From positions 1 through 64,000 of the forward strand of contig JAIVFJ010000270.1 in NCBI GenBank assembly GCA_025765615.1: a DNA stretch of 64,000 bases, in the 5' to 3' direction. The position numbers and the translations under genes were made by a program. Shown one piece after another: positions 5,516-55,883 of this stretch. Below the pieces are notes generated by a model. The model saw nothing but the letters and a program-made list of their open reading frames with translations. It had not been told where the DNA came from and made no database searches. This stretch comes from Zopfochytrium polystomum (lineage: Eukaryota > Chytridiomycota > Chytridiomycetes > Chytridiales > Chytridiaceae). Positions within the stretch are counted from its first letter, which is position 1; each line of letters starts with the position of its first letter.

Positions 5516-5701
5516 ACGCGAGGGTGTGAGTGGGTGTGTGTGTGTCTGTCGAAGGGGTTGTAGTGGTTTCCGATATCACGTGTAGGGCACAAAAGTGGAA
5601 GCATCAGCGACGGTTGAAGAGGCTATCTGAGTACTAAGGAACTAGGCCAAGTAGAAAAAAACCATAAAACACTTCGCACAACAACGGCCAAGGCGCTCTT
5701 T

Positions 5702-7260
5702 TCAGACTTTCTTTTCGTCACCGTCCTGGACGACGGCAACTTGTGGCGCCTTGCCATCGAACAGTGCGTCCATGTCCTCGAGCGTATACCCTTCGTCTCG
5801 GGGTAGAAAAAGTAGCAGATCGCGGCGATAAAGTAGTTGTAAGCCATAAACACAAAGAACGTCTTCCACCCGAGGTTGCTGAGCATCACGGGGAAGAGGT
5901 AGCTGAGGGCGACGGACGCAACGTTCTGCGTCTGCGACGCGATGCCGACGGCCTGAGCACGGACGGTCATTGGGAAGATCTCGCCGGTGTAGATCCACAC
6001 CGTCGCACCCCAGGACGGCTTGTAGAAGAAGATGAAGACGAAGAACATGGACACGAGCCCAATGCCGGTTCCCGTCTGGTAGAGCGAGCCGTTCGCCTCT
6101 GTTGTGATGCCGACGATCGAGACGATAAGCATGGCGGTGCCCATGCCGAGGGCACCGATGACGAGGATGGTGATGCGGCCGAGGCGGTCGACGAAGAAGG
6201 TCGAGTTGAGCGTGAAGAGGATGCCGCAGATTGAGTTGACCACGTTGATGACGTTGGTGGTGTTCTGGTTGTTAAAGATCTTGTTGTAAATCTTGGACGA
6301 GTACGAGTTGAGCGAGTTCTGCCCGGTCGTCTGCTGAGAAAAGTTGATGAAGAGCGCCATCGCGAGCCGCTTGAGCATGTTTGCCTTGGTAAACAGCATC
6401 TGGTACACGGCCCACGCGCCCGGGTTATTTGCACGCTCCGCCGAAATGTACTCGGTGATCTCCTCCAGCTCGCGGTCGAGGTCTTCGTCCGAGCGCAGTC
6501 CTGCGAGCACTGCGCGCGCCTCGTCGTTGCGGCCGTTGTAGATGAGCCAGCGAGGGGACTCGGGCCCCATCCAAACCGTGAAACGAAGAACGCCGGCGCG
6601 ACGACTTGGAGGATGAGCACCATGCGCCACTGCCAGTCGCCGAGTTCGGCGTGCCAGCCCATGAAGAGCGCCACCAGGTAAGAGAAGAAGGCGCCGACCG
6701 AGTACATCAGCTGCCACAGCGACATCATAGTCCCGCGGATCTCGACCGGCGCGATTTCGCCCATGTAGACGGGACCCGACGGAAGCATCAAGCCTTGGCC
6801 GAGACCAACACCAGTGCGCCCGAGCACGTGGATGGCAAAGGTGGGTGAAAAGGTCTGCAGGAACGTGAAACCGATGATGAGGATCGCGCCAATGAACATG
6901 GGCAGCCGGCGGCCGAACTTGTCCGAAAGAATCGGCGCGACGAAGAAGCCTGTGAACACGGCACCGCACGAGTAGCCGACACCGACGAGACCGACAGTGT
7001 CCGAGCTGACCGCGGGCTTGCCCTTTGAGTCGACCGTGTTGCCAAAGGCGGCGTTCCTATCAACCGATGCGGCGGAGGTGGGGGGGTGGGTCTCGTTAAT
7101 GAGCGCTTGCGGTTTGCGCGTATAATTGGGCTTACCAGGACGGCGACGTGTTGGTTGCGTTGAAGGTTGATGCATCGTAACCGTACATGAACATGCACAA
7201 GGAAATGGAGATGCAGACGAAGTAGGCATACATGAGCCGGTTTCTGGGAATGGCACCCAT
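5702..7260 (-). CDS. MFS sugar porter, two frameshifts
   Basis: This encodes a proton-linked or facilitative sugar transporter of the plasma membrane (sugar porter family). Start ATG is at 7260; exon 1 is 7260-7136, the intron 7135-7057 (GTAAGC...ATAG), and exon 2 runs to 5702. Family marks in order: MYGYDAS in helix 1, DKFGRRLPM, the GRTGVGLGQG loop, PVYMGEIAPVEIRG, PESPRWL, QQTTGQNSLNSYS, FFVDRLGR, and PETKG followed by YTLEDMDALF. The length (about 515 residues) is normal. The frame slips by one missing base near 6581-6583 (T run before the PESPRWL block) and again near 5789-5791 (between PETKG and YTLEDMD). Conservation resumes exactly in the new frame each time, so the protein is either recently inactivated or the assembly dropped bases. 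The substrate cannot be told. Confidence 0.85.
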
Positions 7261-15999: not shown

Positions 16000-18900
16000 T
16001 CAAACTTTTATGACAGAACAAAAGCCTTCACCAAGAATGAAAGCAGTTTGACTTGAGAGGAGCTGAAAGTAACCACGTAACTCAGGCGGAAGCCAGCAAC
16101 TGACTTTTGCGGCATCAAAGGTGAACCAAACACCATTTTTTATCCCAGATTTACTCTGTAGCGGCTCTCCTGTCCAAATCCATGCACTACAATTGTGTGA
16201 CTGGCTTGGGGGAGCGACATCATCACTGAATGCAGAAAAACCCTCCAGCTCATGCAACTTCTGGCCAGTCGAAGCATTCCAAATCGTGACCGTCTTGTCC
16301 TGACTTCTAGACACAACAGATTGCCCATCAGGACTGAATGCTGCAGATGTGACAACTTTAGAGTGTACCTCCAGCTTATGCAGCTCCTGGCCAGTGGAAG
16401 CATTCCAAATCCTGACTGTCTTGTCCAGACCTGCAGACACAACAAACTGCCCATCAGAGCTGAATGCTGCAGACCTGACACTATTGGAGTGTCCCTCCAG
16501 CTTATGCAGCTCCTGGCCAGTGGAAGCATTCCAAATCCTGACTGTCTTGTCAGAACTTGCAGACACAACAAACTGCCCATCAGGACTGAATGCTGCAGAG
16601 TTGACACCTTCAGAGTGTCCCTCCAGCTTGTGCAGCTCCTGGCCAGTGGAAGCATTCCAAATCCTGACTGTCTCGTCAGAACTTCCAGACACAACAAACT
16701 GCCCATCAGGACTGAATGCTGCAGAGTTGACACTATCAGAATGTCCCTGCAGCTCATGCAGCTCGTGGGCAGTGGAAGCATTCCAAATCCTGACTGTCCA
16801 GTCCCAACTTCCAGACACGACAAACTGCCCATCAGGACTGAATGCTGCAGAGTAGACAGCATAAGAGTGTCCCTCCAGCTTATGCAGCTCCTGTCCGGTG
16901 GAAGCATTCCAAATCCTGATTGTCTTGTCAGAACTTCCAGACACAACAAACTGCCCATCAGGACTGAATGCTGCAGAGTTGACACCTTCAGAGTGTCCCT
17001 CCATCTTATGGAGCTCCTGGCCAGTGGAAGTATTCCAAATCCTGACTGTTTCATCAGAACTTCCAGACACAACAAACTGCCCATCAGGACTGAATGCTAC
17101 AGAGTCGACACCACCAGAGTGTCCCTCCAGCTTATGCAGCTCCTGGCCAGTGGAAGCATTCCAAATCCTGACTGTGTTGTCCCAACTTCCAGACACAACA
17201 AACTGCCCATCAGGACTGAATGCTGCAGAGTTGACACTATCAGAATGTCCCTCCAGCTTATGCAGCTCGTGGGCAGTGGAAGCATTCCAAATCCTGATTG
17301 TCTTGTCAGAACTTCCAGACACAACAAACTGCCCATCAGGACTGAATTCTGCAGAGTAGACAGCATCAGAGTGTCCCTCCAGCTTATGCAGCTCCTGGCC
17401 AGTGGAAGCACTCCAAATCCTGACTGTGTTGTCCCAACTTCCAGACACAACAAACTGCCCATCAGGACTGAATGCTGCAGAGTTGACACTATCAGAATGT
17501 CCCTCCAGCTCATGCAGCTCGTGGGCAGTGGAAGCATTCCAAATCGCGACTGTCCAGTCCCAACTTCCAGACACGATAAACTGCCCATCAGGACTGAGTG
17601 CTGCAGAGTAGACAGCATAATAGTGTCCGTCCAGCTTATGCAGCTCCTGCCCGGTGGAAGCATTCCAAATCCTGACTGTCTTGTCAGAACTTCCAGACAC
17701 AACAAACTGCCCATCAGGACTGAATTCTGCAGAGTTGATACTATCAGAGTGTCCCTCCAGCTTATGCAGCTCCTGGCCAGTGGAAGCATTCCAAATCCTG
17801 ACTGTGTTGTCCCAACTTCCAGACACAACAAACTGTCCATCAGGACTGAATGCTGCAGAGTTGACAATAGCAGAGTGTCCCTCCAGCTTATGGAGCTCGT
17901 GGGCAGTGGAAGCATTCCAAATCCTGACTGTCCAGTCCCAACTTCCAGACACGACAAACTGCCCATCAGGACTGAATGCTGCAGAGTAGACAGCATAAGA
18001 GTGTCCCTCCAGCTTATGCAGCTCCTGCCCAGTGGAAGCATTCCAAATCCTGATTGTCTTGTCAGAACTTCCAGACACAACAAACTGCCCATCAGGACTG
18101 AATGCTACAGAGTCGACACCACCAGAGTGTCCCTCCAGCTTATGCAGCTCCTGGCCAGTGGAAGCACTCCAAATCCTGACTGTCTTGTCCCAACTTCCAG
18201 ACACAACAAACTGCCCATCAGGACTGAATGCTGCAGAGTTGACAATACCAGAGTGTCCCTCCATCTTATGGAGCTCCTGGCCAGTGGAAGTATTCCAAAT
18301 CCTGACTGTTTCATCAGAACTTCCAGACACAACAAACTGCCCATCAGGACTGAATGCTACAGAGTCGACACCACCGGAGTGCCCTTCCAGCTTATGCAGC
18401 TCCTGGCCAGTGGAAGCATCCCAAATCCTGACTGTCTTGTCATCACTTCCTGACACAACAAACTGCCCATCAGCACTGAATGCTGCAGAGTAGACACCGT
18501 TTGAGTGTCCCTCCAGAATATTTAAACAAGGAGGCCACGATTTTGGTTGCCCTTTTACAACTTTAGGGCATGACACACTTTCAGGTACATTCTGAACAAA
18601 TGTTTTAAAAAATTCAGAGTCACTTGGGGAGAAGGGTACAGCTGTGAAGTAAACTTGCAACCCAGATGCCTTGAGTGGAATGAGAAACCTTCGCACAACC
18701 CTTTTTACGTCTTTCATTAGGGTGTGCAATTGTTTCTTTTCTGGAATAGTGAACAGAGTCTGGAGCTTGGTCATGGCTGGAATCACCAAATTAAGTGAAT
18801 CAATCAAACTGCATGCTTCAAGGTAATGATGTCCGTGTTGCACAAGAAGTGCTTCTAATTCAGCCAACAGTGTCTCGTCAATCTGAAGTAATTTGCTGAT

Positions 18901-21900
18901 GGAAGTCACAGACACAGGGGCAGCACCCTTGACTGAACCTTCCTTCAACTCAGCACTCAGTTGGGCCTCATGTTTTGCCCAGTTCTTCCTCTTGAAGGAG
19001 CTGGAAATGGACTTGGTATCTTTGACCTTTGTGCCTTGTATGGGGGAGGTTGCATCTGTAGGTTTCTTCAAGTTCTCCTCCTTGTCATAGGTCTGGCTTG
19101 TAGTTTCCACTGAGGAATCAAAGCAATGCTCCCAGAAGTACTTCACTGCATATCTGACATGCTCTGGGACTCCCTTCTCCATTTTCTCATCAAAATCAGG
19201 GATCTCAGAGTGGAAATCAGAGAATGGCAGGTCACACATATTAAATTTCAGATTTTTGTTCATTGCACTGATGCACACGCTTGCAAGTTCAGAGTGGTTA
19301 CTTTTCAGGTCAATCTGAACAGACAGCTTGCATCTTTCTGGAGTTGTCAGGTAGTCCTTGACAGACTTGTGGAAAATCCTAATCTTCTTGGTGGAACCAT
19401 CAAGCACAAGGATGGGACCAAGCAGGCGGATGCACCTCATCACACTTTCAGGTTCCTCCATGTCCAGCAGAGATACGACTGCAGCAGCAGTCAGAGGTTC
19501 ATAGGCAAGAACAATGGTGGACAACACAGCAGGAAGAAGAGTTTCCAAATTGCTCGCTCTGATAGATTGGAGGATGCCATTGAATATTCTGTCATACATC
19601 GAGTCAATGCTGCCATCCATCTTGTCACCGTCAGGAAGGTTTTCAATTTGCTTAAGAGTGATTTCTTCAGTCTCTAATTTCCGCAAATAAGTGCAAGCAG
19701 TCACAAGCCAGACAAATATTCCAGCAGACTTTGACACCAGAATCTCAGATCCCTCATCAACAACAGATTGCTCAGCATTTGAAGACCTGAGGAAATCTCT
19801 TGTGAACTCAATCTGGTCCTGAGTGTTCTCCCCTGCCGTTGGCTCAATCTCCTCAAATGGAATCTTCTCAAAGGCTTTCACAATATCTACTTCAGGGCGC
19901 CCAGTCACCAGCATCTTCACGTTATCAGGGAGCAGCCTGTTCAGCTCTTGAAATACTGAAAGAATCTCATTCCTCTTCCCAATAACACTGCATTCATCAA
20001 GGGCATCGACAACCAGTACCACCAGTGTATCCAGCTTTCTGGCAGCAATGACCCTCTCCAATGGCCGAACAAGCAAAACTTTCATCATCTCATATACGGA
20101 TTTGGACAGAATATCTGGATTGTCTTGCTTGACTTGAAGCAGGATCTCTCCAAATTGATAACTGAACTTTGCAAGACCAAACACCAAAGTCAGGACCAGG
20201 TTGCTTGCACTGCTGTGACGATCGTCATCATGCTTGCAGAAGAACAGGCCACCCAGCATGCCCTGGGCTTGCAACTCCCTGGAGATGATGGCAGCCATTA
20301 CAGACTTGCCAACACCAGCAACACCTTTCAACCACATCACCCTGTTGGGGTTGGCTGCTGCAGGATTATCTGGAGACAAGAACTGAAAAACTTTCTTCAA
20401 CAGCCACTGCCTTGATCCAGGAAGGACGTCCTTCAGGAGAGCCTCCCTCTCAATATCCATCACGTCAGAGAGCGGAGTCAACCATTTCTCCAATTCGGCC
20501 AAGCTGGATCTGGAAAGTGAAATATCTGGACTGGGGATTGGAGTCTTCAAATCAGCCTTGCGGCGGCTGTACACTTCTCTGGCTTCAGTCACAATTCTGT
20601 GAAGGTTCATAGGATGATCAATGTCAGGTGAAGAAATATAAATTGGGAGGAGTGTTTACACTTACTTCATCACATCGCTCTCTGGATTAACCTTTGGCCC
20701 ATTGAGGTCTAGAATCATCTTGACTGTTTGAGACACAGATTGGAGGCCAGGACTCAGAGGGTGAGCGTGAGGGAGATCAGGAAACTTTGTGACATCAACG
20801 CTGCTGAAGTCCACCAAGACCTGTGCCGTCTTGCCATTCTCCAGGGTTGCTCCTTGCCTGCTTGAAAGAAGAACAGGCAGGATATCATGGCCTCTTTCTT
20901 TCTTCATCTGGAGTGCAAGCTCCCACTAGAGTTGTGTGTTAGTGGAGTAGAGGATGAGGGAACAAGGATCTCACTTCCAGCAAGCAGTTGTCTGGCTTCT
21001 TGTCAGCCTCCCGCATTCTCTCCATACTTGCATCAGAACACAGCAGAACGATAACTGAGGAGTGAAACAGTCCAGACATGAAGTTGATTCCCCATTCTTC
21101 ACCAAAGGAAAGGCACTCGGCATCCAAAAAAGGATGTCTTCCATTCAGCCTGGACTCCTCAGTGAGGACAGATCCAGTATAAGCTTTCAAGAGGGAAGAC
21201 ATCATTTTGTCAAAAAGTTTTCCAGCAAAGACTGTCTCAGAAGCCTGCCGGTAGCTGGCAGTGACATTAGAGGGAGGGACAGCAAGAAGCAAAATGAACC
21301 TGATACCTAATGAAAAATGGGTGCTTTTGAACTTTGGCTTTGCATTGCCATTCATCTGGAATCAGCTCAATCCATTTCTCTGCAAGCGAACAAAAGAATT
21401 AGGGAAACGAGATTGAGGCAACCAACTGAATTACAATTCTCACCTTTCTTATTTCCAAGACTCTTGTCATAACTGTCATCTGCAGCAGCAGCAGCAGCGA
21501 AGCTGCCACCAGATGCTGCAGAGGGAGCAGCCACCACTCCCATATTGGTTGTGACAGCAGCAGCAGCAGCAGAAGCGGTTCCAGTGGCGCTGGAGTTCAC
21601 TGCACCAACCACCTGCACAATTGTGAGAACAAATAGAAGTTGCAACAAAGAAAGAAGTGCAGCCAATACACAAAGGTTCTTACTTTCCACTTGAAATTCT
21701 GAGAAAGCAGACTGGGTAGATCATCGTCCTCATCAAGGACAATTGCATCGTTTGTGGCAGAGTCCACATACACCAACTGAATGGCAAAACAGATCTGGAA
21801 TTTGGCACAAACAAGCTGATGCAGCCCACGAAAGTCAGTGGTCACCGGAATGCGGACCTTCCTTCCAAGGCCATCATGCACAAAGGTCACAGTCCATGCA

Positions 21901-21917
21901 GTTGCTCGGCTGGCCAT
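16000..21917 (-). CDS. PB1-TIR-NACHT-WD40 NLR-like protein
   Basis: A six-exon STAND/NLR-type gene of about 1870 residues. Exons: 21917-21684, 21612-21444, 21379-21307, 21254-20975, 20925-20666, 20596-16000; all donors and acceptors are canonical and phases agree. Domains: a PB1-like N-terminus (about residues 8-77, ending in the acidic DEDDDLPSLL); an Ala-rich linker; a TIR domain from FFISYRQ (about 154) through FLDAECLSFGEEW and SSVIVLLCSDAS to NCLLEWELAL, where Glu252 fits the NADase glutamate position; a NACHT domain with Walker A GVAGVGKS (430-437) and Walker B LVVLVVDALDEC (about 530-541); helical NACHT-associated sequence; and 18 WD40 repeats (about 1033-1790). PB1 suggests oligomeric coupling, TIR an effector, NACHT a nucleotide switch and WD40 ligand sensing (family knowledge). 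No frameshift occurs in 5.6 kb of coding sequence. Confidence 0.88.
16249..18516 (-). repeat. 18 tandem 126-bp WD40-coding repeats
   Basis: Eighteen consecutive 42-residue units read LEGHSxxVxSAAFSPDGQFVVSGSxDxTVRIWNASTGQELHK with few changes, so the DNA itself is a near-perfect tandem array. Differences cluster at the two residues after GHS, the one after the next Val, the S/W before D and the K/E/W/N after it, and GQ versus AH near the end. Types recur in blocks (a YAV-type unit with WDWT and AH is followed by an xxVN unit at repeats 5-6, 8-9 and 14-15), indicating block duplication or gene conversion. Confidence 0.9.
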
Positions 21918-23067: not shown

Positions 23068-24418
23068 TCACTCCTCCTTGACGCGATATCCCTTCCTCGT
23101 GGCGTCCCTCAGCGCCGCAAAGTTCTCCTTACTTCCGAAACACTCCTCCGGCCCCCTCGGCGTCCTTGGGTTTATCCAGCAGCGCGGCTGGCGTGTCAAA
23201 CTCGGCGACGCGCCCGCCGTCCAGCACGAACACGCGGTCAAAGCCCGCCACACTGTGGAGCCGGTGCACGACGGAGACGACCGTGGCGTGTGCAAAGTGC
23301 GTGCGGATCGCCGCCTGCAGCTGCGCGTCGGCTGCCGCGTCGACGGAGGCCGTCGCTTCGTCGAGGAAGAGGAGTTTGGACTTTTTGAGGCTGTGGGGTG
23401 GGCGGGGTTTCGGGTTGGAAGTGTTGTGAACGTCAGACAGACCTGAAATGAAATAACCCAACGACAAGGGGACGGCGGACAGAGTTTTCAGAACCACCCG
23501 CCCAGCTCCCCTCTTACATTGCCCGACACAAGCACATCAGCTGCCTCTGCCCGACCGACAGGTTGCTCCCGCCCTCCTCGACCATCGCATCCAGCTTCCC
23601 CGGCATCTCCACCACGGCGTCCTTCAACCCTGCGGCGTCGAGCGCGGCCCAGATCTCAGCGTCCGCGCAGCGCTCCTCGATGTCGAGGTTGAAGCGGACC
23701 GTGCCGGCGAACAGGATGGGCTCCTGCGTGATGATCTGCAGCCGCGAGCGCAGCGTCGCGAGGCCCAACTCGGTCGTCGGGCGGCCGTCGATGGAGATGA
23801 CGCCTGAGGTCGGCTCCGTCAGGCGGAAGACTGCCGAGAGGAGTGTCGACTTGCCCGAGCCCGTGCGGCCGACGACGCCAATCTGTGATAAAGTAATAGT
23901 AAGGGTAAGGAGACGAGGATCACGAGGGATGTGAGGGTCCGTGGGGAAGAAAGGGTGTGCAATGTGTGTGCGTGGAAGGGGACGTGGTGGGTCGGGCAGG
24001 GGGGGTTCTGTCACCTTTTCGCCAGCTCGTACATTGATGGAAATATTCTTGAGGACGGCGTGGTCGGGGCGACTTGGGTACCGCACCTCAAGGCCCGACA
24101 GGACCATTCACCTGCAGAGGGCCATGACTGGTCTGGGTCCGTTGGAAGCGCTCTCGCAGCCCCGTTTGGGTTCTCGGTGCAGTAATACTCGAGGCGTTCC
24201 ACCGAGTTCATCTTTTGTTCATTTCCAGGTGGTTATCGGGGAAGAGCGGCAGGTGTGCGACAGCCGTTTGGTTAGAAGAAAAGAATTTTAACCAACACCT
24301 CCCCCACCTCCGATTCCAGCATGGCGTAATTTTGAACCAGTCCGCCGACAATATCGATAATGCTCAGCGCGGTGGTCAACGTCAAACCGATGGACGACGA
24401 GCTGACTTCGATTCCCAA
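23068..24418 (-). pseudogene. ABC transporter subfamily C, 3' fragment with NBD2
   Basis: The C-terminal part of an MRP-type (ABCC) exporter. Exons in order: about 24418-24308 (last membrane helix, IGLTLTTALSIIDIVGGLVQ), 24211-24015 (MNSVERLEYY linker and first NBD strands), 23882-23518, and 23390-23068. NBD2 is recognisable: Walker A GRTGSGKS, Q-loop QEPILFAGTV, signature LSVGQRQL, Walker B KLLFLDEATASVD and switch His in VVHRLHSV. Frames slip near 24107 and near a C5 run at about 23157. Everything upstream of the last helix, including NBD1 and most membrane helices, is absent: the sequence changes near 24405-24420 into a repeat also found at 25370. The remnant cannot make a working transporter. 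Confidence 0.75.
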
Positions 24419-26705: not shown

Positions 26706-28375
26706 CCTCCTCCTCCTGATATCATTGATTGAAACGTTTGTTGTGGCACAAATTTGTGTATGTTTTTTGGTAAATCGTCACTAAGGACCACATCTTTATC
26801 CATTAGATAACCCAATCCAAATGTTGATTCAAATGACTCATTAATGTTACCAACATTGTCAAAAAACTCTCATATTACATTTATTATCACACTTTTTCCA
26901 CAACCACTTTCTCCATATAAATATAACATTACATCCCATTCATCTTTTATTCCAAACATCCTTCCAATCATGACGTATATGAATTCAATCACTTCATCAC
27001 TAAATTGGTATTTTAATATTTTGTCCAAGTTTTCTGTAGTCATGTCTAGATCAAAGTTTGCATCAAAATATTTCTTTACTACTTTATTTCCTAAATATCT
27101 TTTACATTTTTCTATTTCATCATCACTATTTTCTATCATTTCCACAAATTCACACGTATCAACATTATATATTCCATTTTTGAATCCGTACCATTTGTTG
27201 TCTCGTATCAAGTATGGAAATTTATTGTCAGAATATTTGATCATGTATTCACACAAATCTTTGTAGTTTCCTGGACGACTTCTCCATAGATCTATGTCTA
27301 TGAATATGTCGTTTAAAAACTTTCCTGGACTCTCATAATGCAGGACAAATGCATATTCTCTCATCTTTTTGTAAACAACTCCAGTTGATTCAATCCTTCT
27401 TAAATGTTCCGCTTGTGCACGTTCTTGTACATAGCTTGTAAGCATTTGATAGACTGTTTCTTTTGATCTCCGTTTTTTCTTCTTCTTTCCATTTCTTGTC
27501 CACAATCCTTTTAACACTTGATGAAAAGTCTTCATATTTTATCTCTCTATATTCCATTCCCTCTTTTTCACAGGAAGTGTCATGACATTTTCTTCTCAAG
27601 TGTGATTTTGTTAATGTGAAGTACTGATGTTGACTGTTGTGATCATATGGTTTTGATATTCCTTTAATAAAAGCATCGTTTGATTTTGGTTGGTATAATT
27701 ATAATATTCTTGTTTTCATCCAAAAACATTTTTTCAATATCATCTTCTGCTATATCAAACTTTTCTCCAAGCAGATCTTTAATATGACCCTCTTCTTCAT
27801 TGGCCAAGTATATTTTATTACTTTCATTTACAAGTGTTCCAGCCTCAGAAATAGCATCTGTGTCTTTTTTAACATTATTATTATTTGGTGAAAGACTCTT
27901 TAATTTATTTATTTCTTCAATTGACAATTTTCGTAATGGTTTATTCTTTATAATTTTGTAACCTTGTCCTTCAAAACAGCATTTCTCATTTGCCAGAATA
28001 TCTATGTGATATTTTACGTTTACATAACTTGGAAAGTCACATACTGGATGTTGAAAGTAAATATGGTGTCCACCTGAAAATGTTTGTGTCATAAATGTAT
28101 CTTCTTCTGACAGCGGTTTTATGTTTTGTTCATACCACTTTTTTGCACTATATTCATCATCTTTGTTATCAAGGTCAACACAAGTATATTGGTTTTGTTT
28201 CCGGTTAAAATTGCTATATTTGGTTGATTATCATAGATTGGTGTTGTAATTTTTGTCCAATTATTGGGAAATCCAGTGGGCCTTTTTGTATTATTATTTT
28301 TTTCTCAATGTTCACTCCAAAATATACCCAATTATTTTTTTCTGCTATGTCTATGATTTCTTTTGTTTCTTCCAT
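26705..28375 (-). pseudogene. primase-helicase (AEP plus D5/SF3), truncated and frameshifted
   Basis: From the ATG at 28375 the pieces follow the order of a viral primase-helicase. First comes an archaeo-eukaryotic primase-like part (PNIAILTG, then a DLDN block, then TFSGGHHIYF and a VKYHIDILANE strand). A Cys/His segment with a KEGMEYREIKYEDF block follows. Last is a D5_N-like region leading to the SF3 helicase Walker A GESGCGKS and the later DLPKNIH and FQSMISGG motifs. Frames change near 28290, 28200, 27620 and 27480, and a TGA stops the frame just after Walker A. The gene ends at the island border before the arginine finger. Such enzymes prime and unwind viral DNA; this copy cannot. Confidence 0.7.
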
Positions 28376-28479
28376 GTTTCTCATATTGTTTTTCTCCTTT
28401 ACTTTATGTATGAGAAATAAAATTCACTTTTTACGCGCTTTTATTTAAAACAATTTCTTCTCGCTATTATGTAATAAAT

Positions 28480-28755
28480 ATGGACTCATATCCTCTTAAA
28501 GAACACGTAAAAACACTTTCAAAAACAGATTTTATACGACTTTATCTTGCTATCAATGAAGAATTCGCCCATTTAAAATCTGAAATCCAAATACTGTCCA
28601 TCATCTCCTCTATGCCATAAAACGCCCTGATAAAATTCGGGAGATGTCCTCTCGCTATCATAACCGCAAAAAGCAACAACAACAATATCCTGATCAACAA
28701 CTACCAAACTTCTCGACTGTATTTAAAGCATTCGATTTTTATACACCTTCGTAAT
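28480..28755 (+). pseudogene. small island gene, unknown, one frameshift
   Basis: From the ATG at 28480 the plus strand encodes MDSYPLKEHVKTLSKTDF and a predicted helical stretch. After one frame change near 28600 it continues with RPDKIREMSSRYHNRKKQQQ and ends at 28755. It is the only plus-strand gene in the island, divergent from the primase-helicase. I recognise no family. AT content matches the island. Confidence 0.4.
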
Positions 28756-28890
28756 TGTTTATAAAAAGCATGTGTTTTTTTCAACCATAACTGTACATGA
28801 GACTTCCTCATCAACAACTACCACATCTTCTCGACTGTATTTAACAGTTTTATTCTTAGATACCATTATGGTCGTAATTGTTTATAGAAT
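28690..28890. repeat. direct repeat behind the small island gene
   Basis: 28695-28762 and 28812-28886 both contain CAACAACTACCA(A/C)A(C/T)(C/T)TTCTCGACTG-type text followed by TATTTAA, a variable T-rich segment and TCGTAATTGTTTATA. They are about 75 bases each, about 75-80% identical. The rest of 28756-29028 has no gene. Confidence 0.55.
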
Positions 28891-29028
28891 TCTCATATAT
28901 ATTTCCGACCATAAATATCGGTTAGAACTTTAACTAACATAATCAATCACATTTCGTCGTTTGACTTGCAATCCATTGTACATTTTGTTCTGCACACACT
29001 TACACTCCACACGCCGCACTCACCCAAC

Positions 29029-30182
29029 TTAAACTCGAGGTCTATTAAATGGAGCTTCTCGGTTGACTGATTCAGGCTCTTTAACATTCTTATGATAGTA
29101 TTGAATCATAATTTCATTAAAGCTTTTATATAGTAATCTGAATCTAAGTCTAGTTCAGAATCATTTGTGTGTATAGCTTTTTGCACGTCGATTAAAGTAT
29201 AATTCTGGTAAAGTGTCACATAACACAAACACTTTTGAATGCACTTTAATAGTGACATCACCTTTACGTGGAAGAGTTAAAGGAATACTTTTATCACTTA
29301 TCAAGTTCAAATATCTCTGAATAGTACCACTAGCCATATGATATGGAGACATTGTCATGTACGCAAATTTCTTCTTTTTGAGATAAAACAAGTGATCGTT
29401 AGGACGAGGGTAGTTTCTATCAGCTTTAATGATTTCATCACCTAGTAGTTCATATGAACTGAATTCAAATGCTTTAATCATTAGATCTACAAGTTTCTTA
29501 CCACCAGGTCCACTCAAATAAAACAATACTTTGAACAGTGTGGTAGAGAGCATGACTCATAGATTTTTTCAAGTATTCACGAATGTTCTGTCAGGAACAA
29601 TTTCCTTTAAAAATTTTTTCAAATCTAGTTGTATTAATATTTTCATCATAATCGTAACTTAATCTTTTTGAACAGTAATCATCTTTACTGAAAGGTTTGA
29701 AACATTTTTCTTCAAGATGATATGTTCCATTTTTAAAAGGAATGAACTCAGAGTTTGAATCCAATCGTTCTCCAAAATCCTCCTTGAACCATGCTATTTT
29801 GTGCATTACCTATAATATCTCGTTTGACAAGAGGTTTTAGTTCATTTAATCTGTCATTTATTTTTTTAACAATTTCAGGACCATCATTGTATTTGTCTTT
29901 TAAATGGATATAAACAGTTGGAAAAATATTATTCAAGAAAATAGTCACTTTTAATTTATTGACATCTTTTTTCCACATACCATCAGAATTGTCGTAGTAC
30001 CACCATTGATGTGTGTACGATGTTCTTTTTTTGGTGGAAGTATATACAAATTTCCCTTTGAAACATTTATGCATGTCATAATAACTATCGATATTGTTTA
30101 ATAAAAGTTCTTCACTTATGTCTTCTTTTATGATATACTTTTTTTTTCTTTTTCTTCTGTGCCCCCTCGCCCATCCCGACAT
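29029..30182 (-). pseudogene. second D5-type helicase gene, frameshifted
   Basis: This differs from the primase-helicase 1 kb away. Starting at the ATG at 30182 it has a basic N-terminus, a block with FVYTSTKKR and WWYYDNSDGMWKKD, then in a new frame the D5_N-like ERLDSNSEFIPFKNGTYHL and FSKDDYCSKRLSYDY. In a third frame it has a degenerate phosphate-loop region FYLSGPGG (the GKS is lost), GDVTIKVHSKVFVLCDTLPE and a C-terminal MIQYYHKNVKEPESV. Stops and frame changes occur near 29790, 29570 and 29160. A helicase of the viral primase-associated group without a primase domain, clearly inactive because the Walker A lysine and serine are missing. Confidence 0.65.
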
Positions 30183-30192
30183 ACCACCCGAA

Positions 30193-30263
30193 GTCACGTG
30201 ACCTCGTTCTAAAAACCGGCATAAAAAAAGCCCACAACACTGCTGGCTGCAGCGCTATGGGCT
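30193..30263 (-). terminator. hairpin-T-run / CACGTGAC intergenic element, copy 1
   Basis: Read on the minus strand: arm AGCCCATAGCGCTG, a 7-nt loop, arm CAGTGTTGTGGGCT, then seven T, then a spacer and GAACGAGGTCACGTGAC. The arms give 14 pairs if G-U is allowed on the minus-strand RNA (three G-U pairs), but the plus-strand RNA would have three A-C mismatches. So the structure is meant for minus-strand transcripts. The helicase gene at 30182 starts 10 bases after the CACGTGAC end, and the upstream gene ends at 30327. Confidence 0.7.
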
Positions 30264-30326
30264 TTCTCTTAGTTTTCTTTACTTTACTCACTCAGTTCCA
30301 TCGCCATCTCCATATTTCCTCTTTGG

Positions 30327-30671
30327 TCATGGCTCCTGGATATATCCTTGAATTTTCATATATATATATTCCTCTGTATTCCCACTTGTGTTTCCCGTCT
30401 TTTTGTCATATGTCACTTGATACGTCTCATTTTCCGATCCTAGTGTCTCCTTTCCCGGATCTCCTAGTTTCTTCTTTAATACCTCCTCTGATAACCTTTT
30501 CATCAATCTCCACACTGGATCATCATCATCATCAAGTACCGTCTGGAAATGGTTTATTATTTTCCCTAGTGGCACTTCCATCGGATCTACCCATCCTATT
30601 GGACTCGAGAACCTTTCATCAATTTCAATTTCACTCTGTCCCTTGTTCTTTCCCTTCTTAATGCTGTTCAT
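30327..30671 (-). CDS. island protein of unknown function
   Basis: A 115-codon open frame from the ATG at 30671, sitting between two copies of the hairpin element. The product is charged and predicted helical (GWVDPMEVPLGKIINHF, VWRLMKRLSEEVLKKK) and ends YMKIQGYIQEP. An in-frame extension to 30746 without ATG is possible. It has no cysteine motif and I recognise no family. It is intact, unlike the helicases beside it. Confidence 0.5.
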   Translation of the reverse strand: MNSIKKGKNKGQSEIEIDERFSSPIGWVDPMEVPLGKIINHFQTVLDDDDDPVWRLMKRLSEEVLKKKLGDPGKETLGSENETYQVTYDKKTGNTSGNTEEYIYMKIQGYIQEP

Positions 30672-30762
30672 CTTTCTTTTCTCTTTTCGCTGCTCTCTGT
30701 GCTCTCCTCCTAAGTGCGATAAAAATTCAATTTTTTCCCCCGCCAAGACTTTCCTGGTCTAT

Positions 30763-30834
30763 GTCACGTGACCTCGTTCTAATAATTGTCATAAAAAAAA
30801 GCCCACAACACTGCTGGCTGCAGCGCTATGGGCT
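30763..30834 (-). terminator. hairpin-T-run / CACGTGAC intergenic element, copy 2
   Basis: The same 14-bp stem and loop as copy 1, followed by eight T and the same GAACGAGGTCACGTGAC. The spacer differs (ATGACAATTATTA). It lies between the unknown gene starting at 30671 and the Cys-motif gene ending at 30872. Confidence 0.7.
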
Positions 30835-30871
30835 CTTTTTTCTCTTTCCATTCTCTCATTCGCACTTTTTC

Positions 30872-31499
30872 CTAGATAAAAAGAAATGTCTCGCTGAACC
30901 AGTCTTGCCACTCTCTCACTCGCTTCTTCCACTCCTTCTCCTCATCTCCGTCCTCTCGTTTTGGACCCCACCCCAATCCTGACCACGCCATCAATTTGTA
31001 CTCCCTCTCATACTCCTCCTCTCCTTCCATTCTTATCACATCCATCCTTTTATTATACTCGCGACATTCCACCATCAATCTCTTACTTCTCTTACATTTC
31101 TCACATTTCACTATCAAACTTATCATTATTCCTCCCTTTTTTTCCCATGTTTCACACATTTCCCTCCTTTTCATCACTTCTTCATTCACCTCCACTCTTC
31201 CCCTTTCCAGTTTTTATTCCCGTCTCCCTTTCCCACTTCAACGTCTCATCTATACTCCCTTTCACTTCTCCCACATATCTCATTATCATCCCACTATCTC
31301 CATTGGAAACTTCATCACCTCCTTCTCCTCTTTCTTCATCACCTCCTTCACCACCTTCTTCAATCACCTCCGTCACCACCTTCTTCTCCTCTCCCTTCCC
31401 TTCTTTTCTGTGTTTACTACACTTTTCCTTTCCATCCCTCGACTTTACTCCACACACAGTCCCTTTCTTGGCTCCTTTCACGTATTCGTAGTCACACAT
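30872..31499 (-). pseudogene. Cys-rich short motif protein, one frameshift
   Basis: Starts at the ATG at 31499 with MCDYEYVKGAKKGTVCG and then CSKHRKEG, the C-x-Y-x3-KG-x2-KG-x2-C ... C-x2-H pattern that recurs as a small zinc-binding module in many large DNA viruses (family knowledge). A Glu/Gly-rich linker and the block VGEVKGSIDETLKWERET follow. A one-base frame change near 31185 leads to a second Cys pair (VKCEKCKRSKRL) and a Trp-rich basic C-terminus ending at 30872. The KGSIDE block is shared with the next gene. Confidence 0.5.
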
Positions 31500-31577
31500 T
31501 TCCGATGCTTTTCTACTAAGCCCTCACAAAATTCAGTTTTTCCTCCGCCAAGACCCCGCGCCCATTCCTGACACACT

Positions 31578-31649
31578 GTCACGTGACCTCGTCCTAAAAA
31601 CCGCCATTAAAAAAAGCCCACAACACTGCTGGCTGCAATGCTATGGGCT
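31578..31649 (-). terminator. hairpin-T-run / CACGTGAC intergenic element, copy 3
   Basis: Here the left arm is AGCCCATAGCATTG: relative to the other copies one G-U pair becomes A-U and one C-G becomes U-G, so both changes keep the stem. Seven T and the CACGTGAC block follow. It lies 79 bases upstream of the Cys-motif gene start and just below the 3' end of the next gene at 31669. Confidence 0.7.
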
Positions 31650-31668
31650 TTCTCTTACAAACACCAGG

Positions 31669-32011
31669 TTACCATGTATGTGCACTGTGTTCATATTCAT
31701 CTCCATCATATCTTGTCACTATTTCCATTCTTTTCACTGTATAACTCGGATCCAATGCTCCATCCCACCTTGACAATACTTTCCCCCTTATCGTAAATGT
31801 TATTCGACTCATCTTTCCATTCACTTTTATATTCTTCCCCTTCCTTTTCTTCATGCTTATTCCCAGTCCCAGCTTTACTTTCTTTCGTCCCAAATATCTG
31901 TTTAGTTTCTTTTTCCAATTTTATTATTTCATCAATGCTTCCTTTTATGTCTCCTGGTTTTATATACTCAAATATCATGTCCACAATTTCTTTTGGCATT
32001 CTCTGTATCAT
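31669..32011 (-). pseudogene. F-box-like island protein with KGSIDE block, one frameshift
   Basis: From the ATG at 32011 the product begins MIQRMPKEIVDMIFEYI, which looks like an F-box-type N-terminus. It continues with GDIKGSIDEIIKLEKET, a paralogue of the block in the neighbouring gene. After a frame change near 31890 the sequence NGKMSRITFTIRGKVLSRWD and DPSYTVKRMEIVTRYDGD continues to the stop at 31669. F-box proteins recruit ubiquitin-ligase substrates and are common in large DNA viruses. The F-box call is tentative. Confidence 0.4.
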
Positions 32012-33506: not shown

Positions 33507-35710
33507 AATATATAAGGGGACCGCCTACCTGTAGACCCCCCCCTTCCTATTGCGCTGGAGGCCGTTGAACCACTGTCGTTTGTCTTCGCTTTTTTTTCTT
33601 CAACGCTTTTCTCATTTTATTCTTTCTGCTCATCGCCGTTGCGTCGTCTGGCACCGCTGGAGCCCACCGCACAACCACCTGGCACGTTCGTCGATCATGC
33701 CCAGAACCGCGGCACTGCCACATTTCTGCTGTCGCCCCACAACTTCAACAAGCTCAAACTGACTTGGAATGCAAGTAGTCGCTTTTGCTGCAATCCGCAT
33801 TTGCTGCGAGTTTTTCAGCCTTCCACGAGCAGCTGCGATCTTTGGGTCCAAAATTGTCTGCTGGATCGGCCCGTTCGCGATCACCTTGACTGTTCTAGCA
33901 AACGCTGCTTCTTTGCCACGGGCATGCTGACAGCACTTACCATGGCAGCAGTTAGCTGTGTATCCAGTGATGATACTGGAATCAGAGAAGCTGGTTCTTC
34001 AGTAGCTTTAACGATCTGCCAATGTGAATGGACATCTTCTTTTCAATTGCAAGATTGCTTGACAGCTTCGTGGAGATCTCGTGTGAACAGGGGAGCCCAT
34101 TTGAAGCACGGAAACGACCTGTGCAAGTGGAGTCCAATGGCAGTTGTGTGGCCGTGTCCAGCTGTTGAGCAATGAAGTCCAGCGCATAGCGCGAAATCGT
34201 TGTCCAACCCAGGTTGAAGGTAGGGATGTCGAAGGCGTAACGGCTGCTTAGATATAGATAGCAAACTCTTGTATCGCTCACTTTCTTGCTGATGCATCAG
34301 ATAGCGTTCAATGCATATAAAAGCTCCGAGAAGGTCATTTTTCGATTCTTCAAGGTACTTCTTGATGACAGCGTGAATGCCCTCAACACGAGAAGTGGTT
34401 GTGTTGCTGAGATGCAGCTTCAGATCCGTCCAGGCGTCAACAAAGCGTTCCTTGTGCTCGTACCATTTTTCTACATAACCAACAGCAGTTGGCCAGCACT
34501 CAGAATAGGTCGCTCTGAGTCGAGTTGTTGACTCCATAAATTGCTCCTCAGTTTTTGAATAGCACAGCGCATTCCAGTCTCGCATGAACATCTCATATGC
34601 TTGCCGGCACCACCGCCTGTGAAAATGGGTTTAACGTTGGCAACGACATTCTTGTTGATATGCCATCGGCAGAGAAGATTGCTTGCATCAGGAAAGACTT
34701 CCGACAAGGCGTTCATGAGTGCAAGCTCCCGATCTGTCAAAACAACGCTCGGCTGTTGTCCATTCAACAACTCCGAAAGCTGTTGCAAGGCCCACTTATA
34801 ATCATCAGTCTCTTCACGTGAAAGAAAAGCGAATGCAACATTGAGTGTAGAACCGTTCTCTGAAACTGTGACAATATTGAGGAGGGGCAGCTGAAACTTG
34901 TTTGTCTTGTATGTGCAGTCCATCAGAAGTACAGAAGGTCGTGCACAGAAGCTTTTGATAGCGCCGGCAGCCGCAAAGAAGAGATGTTGAACACGCCCTG
35001 TTGTAGGATCACGCTGATATGAATTATGATAGCCAGAAGCCTGCAGTCGGTCAAGTAGCGCTTCCATTGATGTCCGACCTCCAAGCTCGTCCATCTTAAA
35101 CTTCTGCCGCATGTTCACAACATCTTTCGGGACAATGAGTACGTCTGGAAACCTCGATTGAAGCGAGTTCATAATGTGACGATTCCCTGCACCATCAGCT
35201 ACGAGTGATCGGAAGAGTTTCTGGGCGTCGGGTGGAAGCCTTCTCGCTGCAGCCAGCGATCGGAAGCTGTCAGGAGAGCATGAATGCGATCCGTTTGTAA
35301 TAACAAGCCTCCAAAGACCGCGATTCGTGCCAGATCCGATGAGCCTACCTGTCAACTTGAAAGTGCATTCAATGCAGTGGGTGCTGGTATTTGCGCGACG
35401 TTTGATGTTCTCTTCCGGTCGGTGAGGCTCTTTTCGAAACTTGCCGCCTTGAACACACGCAATCTGAACTCGCTGATAATTGCTGCTAGTTTTCTTTACT
35501 ACGTAGCTGTGCCGAGTTGCGAACTGCACCACAAAGTCGAATAGGGAATTCTTCGACTGGAAGGTTTGGTCGACTGGCGGTGCTGTCCGAAAATCATCCA
35601 TTGTGGTGTGAAAGGGAAGACAATCAAAAGCGAAGACAAACGACAGGGTTCAACGGCCTCCAGCGCAATCGGAAGGGGGGGGTCTACAGGTAGGCGGTCC
35701 CAATATATAA
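33507..35710. mobile_element. MULE transposon with TIRs and 9-bp target duplication
   Basis: The element runs 33516-35701. Its terminal inverted repeats (33516 to about 33593 and about 35626 to 35701) are nearly perfect over about 76 bases, beginning GGGACCGCCTACCTGTAGAC. Both are flanked by the same nine bases, AATATATAA (33507-33515 and 35702-35710). A 9-bp duplication is characteristic of Mutator-like elements. It carries one transposase gene on the minus strand. The intact ends and duplication point to a recent insertion. Confidence 0.9.
33982..35601 (-). pseudogene. MULE transposase, two frameshifts
   Basis: From the ATG at 35601: a FAR1-like N-terminal DNA-binding region with a Cys/His pattern (CIECTFKLTGR, SHSC), then the DDE core: VLLMDCTYKTNKFQLPLL (first Asp), VVLTDRELALMNALSEVFP (second Asp) and LLCRWHINKNV (C-x-W-H). 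After a one-base frame loss near 34590 it continues FMRDWNALC and SRVEGIHAVIKKYL with the catalytic Glu. After a second change near 34220 a SWIM-like end GLPCSHEIS follows. The catalytic residues are all present, so the gene was active recently. The frame breaks may be real or assembly indels. Confidence 0.8.
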
Positions 35711-53797: not shown

Positions 53798-55883
53798 ATG
53801 CCGCGTCGTCAAGGTGGTCTCGCCGCCGCCGGCCACTTCTCTCCGCGACGGGTCGTCTCGCAGCAGCCGCCGGAGGAGGAAGCGCATGCAATCCACCTCT
53901 CAAAGTTGGGCTCGCGCGTTTCGCAGCGAAGGACCGCTCCACCCATCGAGTTCGCCCAGGACGGGCAAATCGGTACCGTCGAGCAGAAGCGCGCGAGGGC
54001 TTTTGCGCTCCTCGACGACGCTGATCTGGGTACGTTTCGAAGAAGGGCGATCTGTTCCATTTGAGTCTACTCGTCGTTACACTAATGCGACTATCCTGCC
54101 GTCTCCCCAAACTCCACGCATCTTCCCAAGGTTGGTTTCATTTTCGTGCCGTAATCGTATCGGGGACAGGTTTCTTCACCGATGCGTACGACATCTTCGT
54201 CATCACGCAGTGTTTACCAATAATGTGAGTCAAGGGCCACAATGAAACAACAATTCTGAAACTCAATCTTCTAATGACTTGCCACAGCTACTTCCTCTAC
54301 TACGGCTCTCATATAAGCGGTAGGTCGATCTGTACGTTCGCTCGATTTGTCTAACAGTTTTCTTTGTTTATTTGGGTTCCACCTCGATCAACCAAGGCGA
54401 CGACAAAGTGGACAGGAACGTTGACGCGCTGCTAAAAGCTTCCACCAGTTGGGGCAACCTGGTTGGGCAGCTTCTCTTTGGCTACCTTGGTGACAGGCTC
54501 GGCCGCAAACGCATGTACGGAAAGGAGCTCATCATCATGATCTTCTGCACCATTTGCACGGGCTTTGCTGCCCCCGGAATGTCGCCAGGTCTCTCTATCC
54601 TGCTCGTGCTTGGCATTTCGCGTTTCTTCCTCGGCATCGGCATCGGCGGCGACTACCCAATGTCGGCCATCATCACCTCGGAGTTTGCCAACGTACGGTT
54701 CCGAGGGATGCTGATTGCGGCCGTATTCGCGATGCAGGGGATGGGAATCCTGGTCAGTGGATTCGTCTTTGTGATAACGCTGTCGTACATGCGTCAGTAT
54801 ATCGAGAGTGATATTCTTATCTTGGATTGGGTATGGCGAATCGCGTTGTGGACGGGCGTAATCCCAGGTTTCATTGCCCTCTACTTCCGCCTTACGATTC
54901 CCGAAACTCCACGCTTTACCGTTGACGTCCTTGGCGACGCCGAAAAGGCTGAGCAGGACGTGATTAAAGTTTTGGCTCTGAACGAGGTCCGAGACGTGAC
55001 ATCAGCCTGGGTTCGAGAAACCGCGACGCCTACAGCCCGCATCGCTGTGAAGAGCGACAATTTCTTTGAGTTTATCAGTCAGAGGCGGAATTTGTGCACC
55101 CTCGTCGGAACTGCCTACTCCTGGTTTGCATTGGATATCGTGTGGTATGGGTTGGTGTTGAACGAAAAGAGTGTCATCCACGGAATTTTTCTCAGTGGCA
55201 CGTACGGGGACACACACGCGGACATTACTATGGCAGTCGGACTGAACGGAACGCTGTGCAACGGCACCACGAAAGACATCCTTTCGGATTGCAGAGATTC
55301 CGTCGTGGACTATCTAGTCGCTGTCGCCAAAGGTCAGGTCCTCGTAACAGGCTTAGTGACATTCTTGGGCTTCTTGGCCGCCATTTTCCTCATCGAAACG
55401 CTTGGCCGCAAGACGATCCAACTCTTTGGCTTCACCGCTTTGACGACAATCATGTTTCTTCTGGGAGCCTTCTGGGGTACGTTTTCTGACGCGGTGGCTC
55501 TTAGCCTCTACATTCTCGCCCTATTTTTCTTCAACTTCGGTCCCAACACGACAACTTTCGTCATTCCAAGCGAAGTATTTCCCACCCGCTGGCGAGCAAC
55601 TTGTCACGGCATCTCGGCCGCGTGCGGCAAAGTCGGGGCAATTATCGGAATTCAGGCGGTTGGAGTGTTCATTAATCCAGGGCTTGGAAGCCAAGACAAC
55701 CAAGACGACACGACCAAACAATCAGCGGGCAACCCTAATGTGTTTTTCGTGTTCGGCGCTGTGGCGATGACGGGCATCCTTGCCACTTTTCTAGTTCCCG
55801 AGACGATGGACAAGACGTTGGAGGAGCTTTCACAGCATGACGACGTGTTTATCGACACAGGCGAGGTCGTCTACAATGCATGA
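53798..55883 (+). CDS. PHO84: PHO84-type high-affinity phosphate:H+ symporter
   Basis: A plasma-membrane inorganic phosphate importer of the MFS phosphate:H+ symporter family. Exons 53798-54029, 54131-54224, 54288-54319 and 54397-55883 join in phase to 614 residues; introns have GTACGT, GTGAGT and GTAGGT donors and AAG/CAG acceptors. Family marks: WFHFRAVIVSGTGFFTDAYDIFVI (helix 1), GNLVGQLLFGYLGDRLGRKRMYG, the signature GIGIGGDYPMSAIITSEFA, the central loop after PETPRFTVDV, a second half with ETLGRK and FGPNTTTFVIPSEVFPTRWRATCHG, and the end VPETMDKTLEELS. The N-terminal 75 residues are basic and unusual but in frame. There are no frameshifts. Confidence 0.93.

Follow-up and report, generated by a model that had tools for sequence, protein, structure and literature searches.

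We analysed a window of 64,000 nucleotides from the chytrid Zopfochytrium polystomum (Chytridiomycota, Chytridiales). On the minus strand, between positions 21917 and 16000, six exons are separated by GT-AG introns. They join in phase to encode 1870 amino acids and a stop codon. From N- to C-terminus, the product has a PB1 domain, an Ala-rich linker, a TIR domain with Glu252, a NACHT domain with Walker A and B motifs, and 18 WD40 repeats. Exon 1 (21684–21917; residues 1–78) contains the start codon and PB1, including a basic pair (R19-K20), D52 and an acidic DEDDD cluster. The linker is encoded by exon 2 (21444–21612), which is weakly conserved and detected in only some paralogs. Three exons share the TIR domain. 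The short exon 3 (21307–21379) carries HPFFI, the first TIR strand. Exon 4 (20975–21254) encodes the first part of the domain and ends with the codon for Glu252, the candidate catalytic residue. The second part lies in exon 5 (20666–20925). Exon 6 (16000–20596) encodes the NACHT, a helical/winged-helix region, the WD40 array, a C-terminal tail and the stop.

The initial annotation had proposed this anatomy, and both the exon join and the domain matches bear it out. For the TIR, the Pfam profile TIR_2 scored 33.7 and 36.1 bits (cut-off 28). The NACHT profile itself gave 25.2 bits, slightly below its cut-off of 26.7, and NPHP3_N gave 89.4 bits, far above its cut-off of 24.8. We took the NPHP3_N match as the NACHT. 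Its core lies at 19897–20418 (93.3 bits in place) and both motifs are intact: Walker A, GVAGVGKS, at 20302–20325 and Walker B, LVVLVVDALDE, at 19993–20025. Compared with PDB, the NACHT part gave weak FtsY-type P-loop matches only (best E 0.036). Pfam recognised 18 WD40 stretches and, together with the repeat alignment, these define an array of 18 repeats of 42 residues at 16249–18516. A Walker A/B ATPase followed by repeats that form a superstructure is typical of fungal NLR/STAND proteins. No HET domain matched at E ≤ 1 among the Pfam families listed; TIR_2 was found instead.

Other features lie in or near the gene. Antisense to the WD40 array, a frame of 750 amino acids is open on the plus strand (16201–18453), probably as a by-product of the 126-base repeat. 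A MULE-type transposase domain (PF10551, 99 bits) is encoded at 34471–35649 on the minus strand. From 28001 to 32000, GC content falls to 0.31–0.41, with strong GC and AT skew (to −0.52 and −0.31). Matches to sugar/MFS transporters and to an ABC transporter ATPase (5626–7056, minus; 54324–55880, plus; 23517–24107, minus) are seemingly unrelated neighbours.

A family of TIR-NACHT receptors in the genome

We searched the 80.16-Mb assembly with NPHP3_N and obtained 150 scored matches from 231 candidates. For comparison, we used at least 92 places of the matching TIR type (one per gene, picked by hand) and 85 TIR_2 places. At least 79 of the 150 NACHT places have the matching TIR type within 3.5 kb upstream. 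The remainder have another TIR_2 match (38), fall in the PB1 list (6) or have neither (27). Four of the last group (L001, L003, L004 and L006) carry the matching TIR type on direct comparison; hence, 79 is a lower bound, although near-identical pairs on two contigs or places (L018/L019 and L020/L021), whether alleles or copies, may inflate it. The receptor belongs to a family with roughly 80 members or more, near-identical copies counted, and the idea that the gene is unique in the genome was rejected. It had been supposed that TIR-bearing STAND proteins are rare in fungi. That does not apply to Z. polystomum, where they are the main type of NACHT place.

Further TIR genes were seen alongside the family. 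The 38 NACHT places with another TIR_2 match are TIR_2-NACHT places of other kinds, and many have open frames of around 405 amino acids (e.g. on C18, C57 and C436). P0001 seems to combine one TIR-NACHT of each type. At 46 of the 85 TIR_2 places, the 3.5 kb downstream contain no NACHT place from the 150 scored, and stand-alone TIR genes may be common in this genome. Four of five such loci inspected (L041, L042, L045, L047 and L063) share a second TIR type, MISYxW...W(I/L)DV...(C)KxEIK(F/Y)A; L063 has another.

The gene structure recurs across the paralogs, which keep the order of the exons and their separate frames. At 29 of 36 loci with TIR exon 4, the TIR is preceded by a PB1 exon, a share biased upward since most of these loci were chosen by similarity to the N-terminus. 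This set leaves out the window gene's place and repeats of one place. There was a single miss (L030) and, at six loci, the upstream sequence was too short. Splice dinucleotides were compared at eight of the ten boundaries, exon 2's own two being left out, and all were kept but one. The exon 1 donor is GT in 27/27 paralogs. For exon 3, the acceptor is AG in 34/35 and the donor is kept in 35/35. Corresponding counts are 34/34 and 35/35 for exon 4, 35/35 and 31/31 for exon 5, and 36/36 for the exon 6 acceptor. Pooled pN/pS among paralogs was 0.48 for PB1 (34 sequences), 0.33 for TIR exon 4 (37), 0.39 for exon 5 (39) and 0.29 for the NACHT (41). These ratios indicate purifying selection across the paralogs' PB1, TIR exons and NACHT. 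The closest paralog, L069, differs from the window gene by 3.2, 3.4 and 5.2% at the three codon positions and by 5.3% in introns. As the codon positions diverge almost alike, recent purifying selection on this particular copy is only weakly seen. Upstream of the WD40 array, the two genes differ by two indels, both intronic.

In the predicted receptor, PB1 scores below the Pfam cut-off of 23.6 bits (18.3 bits within the 339-residue N-terminus, 21.3 bits for exon 1 alone). The PB1-like N-terminus first described is nevertheless supported by the paralogs. Of 23 exon-1 translations, a set that includes the window gene's own, 17 match PF00564 at E ≤ 0.01 (best 2.2e-6). When a profile of the 23 was compared with PDB, the first six of eight matches at E ≤ 10 were PB1 domains, among them AtNBR1 (9e-5) and MEKK3 (0.034–0.098). 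We also searched the genome with PF00564, independently of the gene. This gave 35 matches, each above the curated cut-off; the window gene's exon 1 is not among them. Nineteen end between 255 and 753 bases upstream of the matching TIR type on the same strand.

At the binding face of PB1, residues 19 and 20 are both basic in 18/23 copies, counted by eye, and residue 20 is basic in 23/23. The acidic, OPCA-type motif is present, with D52 in 23/23 copies and D65 in at least 90%. Conversely, the canonical lysine of strand beta-1 (residue 11) occurs in 0/23 copies, and the window gene has T there. The alignment with AtNBR1 is gap-free to residue 27 and places R19-K20 on the double-arginine finger, R19-R20; further along, D52 aligns with D60 of the acidic motif. 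In AtNBR1, according to the available text of PMC6978347, binding is abolished when the arginine pair is missing, and the lysine, K11, has an assisting role. Hence, with the basic pair and D52 retained and the lysine missing, self-polymerisation of the receptor through PB1 is plausible. AtNBR1 and p62 have a similar basic pair and acidic motif. However, they are autophagy receptors, and the chytrid domain differs in having no beta-1 lysine.

Within the TIR, Glu252 lies in the motif LLEWELAL and is kept in 36/36 loci that cover the position, near-identical copies included. We take it to be the known catalytic Glu of NADase TIRs, going by the TIR_2 consensus and plant TIRs. A TIR alignment, containing pieces of Cladochytrium replicatum P0006 and Zopfochytrium P0001, had 11/11 members matching TIR_2 at E ≤ 0.01. 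Its profile matched no PDB chain at E ≤ 1 and so did not connect, by sequence, to any TIR of solved structure. The residue proposed at the outset stays a candidate, and its conservation is the one pointer to a putative NAD-cleaving activity.

Some paralogs have lost the TIR. Five of the six NACHT places in the PB1 list were inspected: L074 (on C12) has the TIR exons, with their frame broken, and four lack these exons wholly or mostly. In L070, exon 2 is in frame with the last codons of exon 5. The resulting gene is open as far as the C-terminus seen in the window gene, and a short linker joins its PB1 to NACHT and WD40. A similar junction occurs in L073, where a stop precedes the WD40 part. 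L071 and L072 have in common a second in-frame junction, at which exons 3 and 4 and approximately the first third of exon 5 are gone; L071 also has a later frame break. In a NACHT tree of 41 sequences, L070 to L073, the window gene and L069 form a group of six (100/99). Three changes of TIR state are needed on this tree, and two junction types were seen. PB1 in the four TIR-less copies has a pooled pN/pS of 0.27, a value based on few changes. The TIR can be dropped with PB1 kept.

Variable positions of the WD40 array

Each of the 18 repeats is exactly 42 residues long. Their mutual identity is 81% for amino acids and 89% for nucleotides, and a single base separates repeats 9 and 11. Variability is greatest at five positions: 6, 7, 9, 25 and 27. 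In the HNWD genes of Podospora, codons 7, 9, 25 and 27 are reported to be under strong positive selection, and 8 and 26 under purifying selection, in the accessible part of PMC1805685. The five chytrid positions contain all four of those selected positively. Taking these four as preset from Podospora, we obtained pN 0.44 and pS 0.27 (pN/pS 1.60), against pN 0.066 and pS 0.117 at other positions. Random sets of four positions gave p = 7e-5 for the variability at 7, 9, 25 and 27. The ratio for all five positions, 1.66, is circular, as they were chosen by variability, and is superseded by that for the preset four. Positions 8 and 26 had pN 0.024 and pS 0.159 in the window gene's 18 repeats, read at fixed steps.

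The same five positions lead again among 40 repeats pooled from the window gene, L069, L070, L072 and L073. Taken by itself, L070 has position 27 outside its six most variable. For the other loci, repeats were selected with a pattern in which positions 8 and 26 are constrained, either loosely or completely. Hence, for those two positions, only the window gene's 18 repeats count. Some repeats were missed by the pattern, which found nine in L070, where there are 14 WD matches, and none in L071.

These features resemble those of HET-E, HET-D and HET-R, the HET-NACHT-WD40 proteins of Podospora anserina. Both have a NACHT and WD40 repeats that share high identity within the array, and in both variability is concentrated at 7, 9, 25 and 27 while 8 and 26 are held, as far as the accessible part of the Podospora study goes. 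The chytrid gene differs in its TIR in place of HET, its added PB1, its five introns and its host. In the Podospora model, as given in the same source, the variable positions are on the upper face of the propeller, so shared geometry may account for part of the match. A role in self/non-self recognition or antiviral defence had been suggested from the outset. It is the self/non-self part that gains support, from the HNWD-like pattern of variable WD40 positions.

Relatives in chytrids and plants

A protein search with residues 150–600 returned at least 35 proteins, including TIR-NACHT proteins whose repeats are WD40 or ankyrin. Among the matches listed, chytrid relatives from Entophlyctis, Nowakowskiella, Cladochytrium, Phlyctochytrium, Chytridium, Rhizophlyctis and Irineochytrium were 31 to 41% identical. 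With residues 1–340, at least one match was obtained; we take it that words from the Ala-rich stretch swamped the candidates. PB1 was not supported in the N-termini of five other chytrid proteins (probabilities of 0.6 to 23% against the PB1 profile). Closest in layout is P0013 of Rhizophlyctis rosea, a TIR-NACHT-WD40 protein with a weak N-terminal PB1 match (19.2 bits, E 0.0012, below the cut-off). Its N-terminus reached a probability of 10.6% against the chytrid PB1 profile. Separately, P0007 of Phlyctochytrium bullatum has a weak SAM match (15 bits, cut-off 23) before its TIR-NACHT-WD40 part. SAM, another small domain of the assembly type, may here occupy the place of PB1.

NLRs with a TIR have been stated to occur in Chytridiomycota (PMC9815663, citing Daskalov and others 2020), the sole paper saying so in the literature searched; its available text does not mention PB1. 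Most chytrid relatives among P0002 to P0020 are built in the same way, with the TIR before the NACHT. As annotated, P0005, P0008, P0010 and P0015 start at or near the NACHT. The words chytrid and PB1 do not occur in the accessible portions of PMC10197012 and PMC12881547.

The novelty first claimed for the PB1-TIR-NACHT-WD40 arrangement needs qualifying. No fungal protein that combines the four domains was found in the literature searched, which lacked most subscription papers. However, a plant protein, AsTIR19 of Arachis stenosperma, is described as PB1-TIR-NB-ARC in the part of PMC9786959 available. That paper, to the same extent, is the sole case of PB1 as an integrated NLR domain in the literature searched. 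AsTIR19 is similar in having an N-terminal PB1, then a TIR, then a STAND ATPase. It differs in being a plant protein with NB-ARC and, from the text available, no repeat domain. The two PB1-TIR arrangements are probably convergent.

Proposed function and alternatives

Our preferred reading, with a probability of about 0.7, is a STAND receptor of the NLR type in which WD40 senses, NACHT switches, TIR executes and PB1 assembles or pairs. The WD40 array would bind a protein ligand via a few variable residues of its upper face. Upon binding, the NACHT ATPase would exchange nucleotide and oligomerise. TIR domains gathered in this way would consume NAD+ through Glu252, and the output might be cell death or a nucleotide signal. 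Receptors would be linked to each other, or to a partner, by front-to-back contacts between acidic and basic residues of the N-terminal PB1. A TRPM-type SLOG domain, a possible reader of TIR products, gave no match, and neither did the controls.

Could the PB1 exon belong to a separate gene, with the six-exon model a chance join? The public Z. polystomum protein P0010, named as partial, starts inside the NACHT exon, and residues 1–80 match no database protein (14 candidates, none at E ≤ 10). P0010 is 100% identical to L004 over 476 and 165 residues, and L004 has TIR exons 3, 4 and 5 upstream; hence, P0010 lacks its own N-terminus. Against a chance join, the exon 1 donor kept in all 27 paralogs compared, their similar order and spacing, the 19 genomic PB1 matches that precede TIR exons, and the in-frame fusion in L070 make a separate gene extremely unlikely, and we reject it. 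The PB1 might instead be an integrated bait, copying a host PB1 protein under attack, and so a sensor and not an assembly module. Such a reading has been proposed for AsTIR19 (PMC9786959, in the part available), and none of the other three stretches compared reaches the pN/pS of PB1. However, PB1 recurs family-wide and not in single members, and it is kept where the TIR is gone, with a low pN/pS that is based on few changes. We consider the bait unlikely.

It is similarly doubtful that the TIR is a scaffold, recruiting other TIR proteins without being an enzyme. Stand-alone partners may exist among the 46 TIR_2 places that have no scored NACHT downstream, but a scaffold sits poorly with an invariant LLEWEL motif and its Glu252. 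A further concern is that many copies, perhaps the window gene too, are relics, and that the WD40 array is partly a product of assembly. Frames are broken in L035, L074 and L071, L073 stops before its WD40 part and, by the accessible text of PMC12222747, Illumina assemblies failed to recover such arrays in Podospora. Conversely, the window gene reads through 1870 codons without interruption, the indels that separate it from L069 before the array avoid its exons, and the L070 frame extends unbroken to the same C-terminus. We regard the relic explanation as very unlikely.

The preferred reading, a receptor that senses through WD40 and acts through its TIR, leaves room for a wider arrangement. 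TIR-less PB1-NACHT-WD40 proteins could be sensors or dampers that plug, via PB1, into TIR-bearing executors. This PB1-wired network is quite unlikely on present evidence. If true, many WD40 specificities would feed one TIR output, in a manner that resembles the sensor and helper NLRs of plants and would have been separately invented in a chytrid. The natural TIR-less variants offer a direct test of the role of PB1. Where a 2014 survey (PMC4986451, in its available text) found NLRs in none of the chytrids it covered, Z. polystomum has a large repertoire of TIR-NLRs with an extra domain of the assembly type. Finally, the variable WD40 positions shared with allorecognition receptors of ascomycetes suggest that this way of making specificity is much older than Ascomycota, or arose again outside them.
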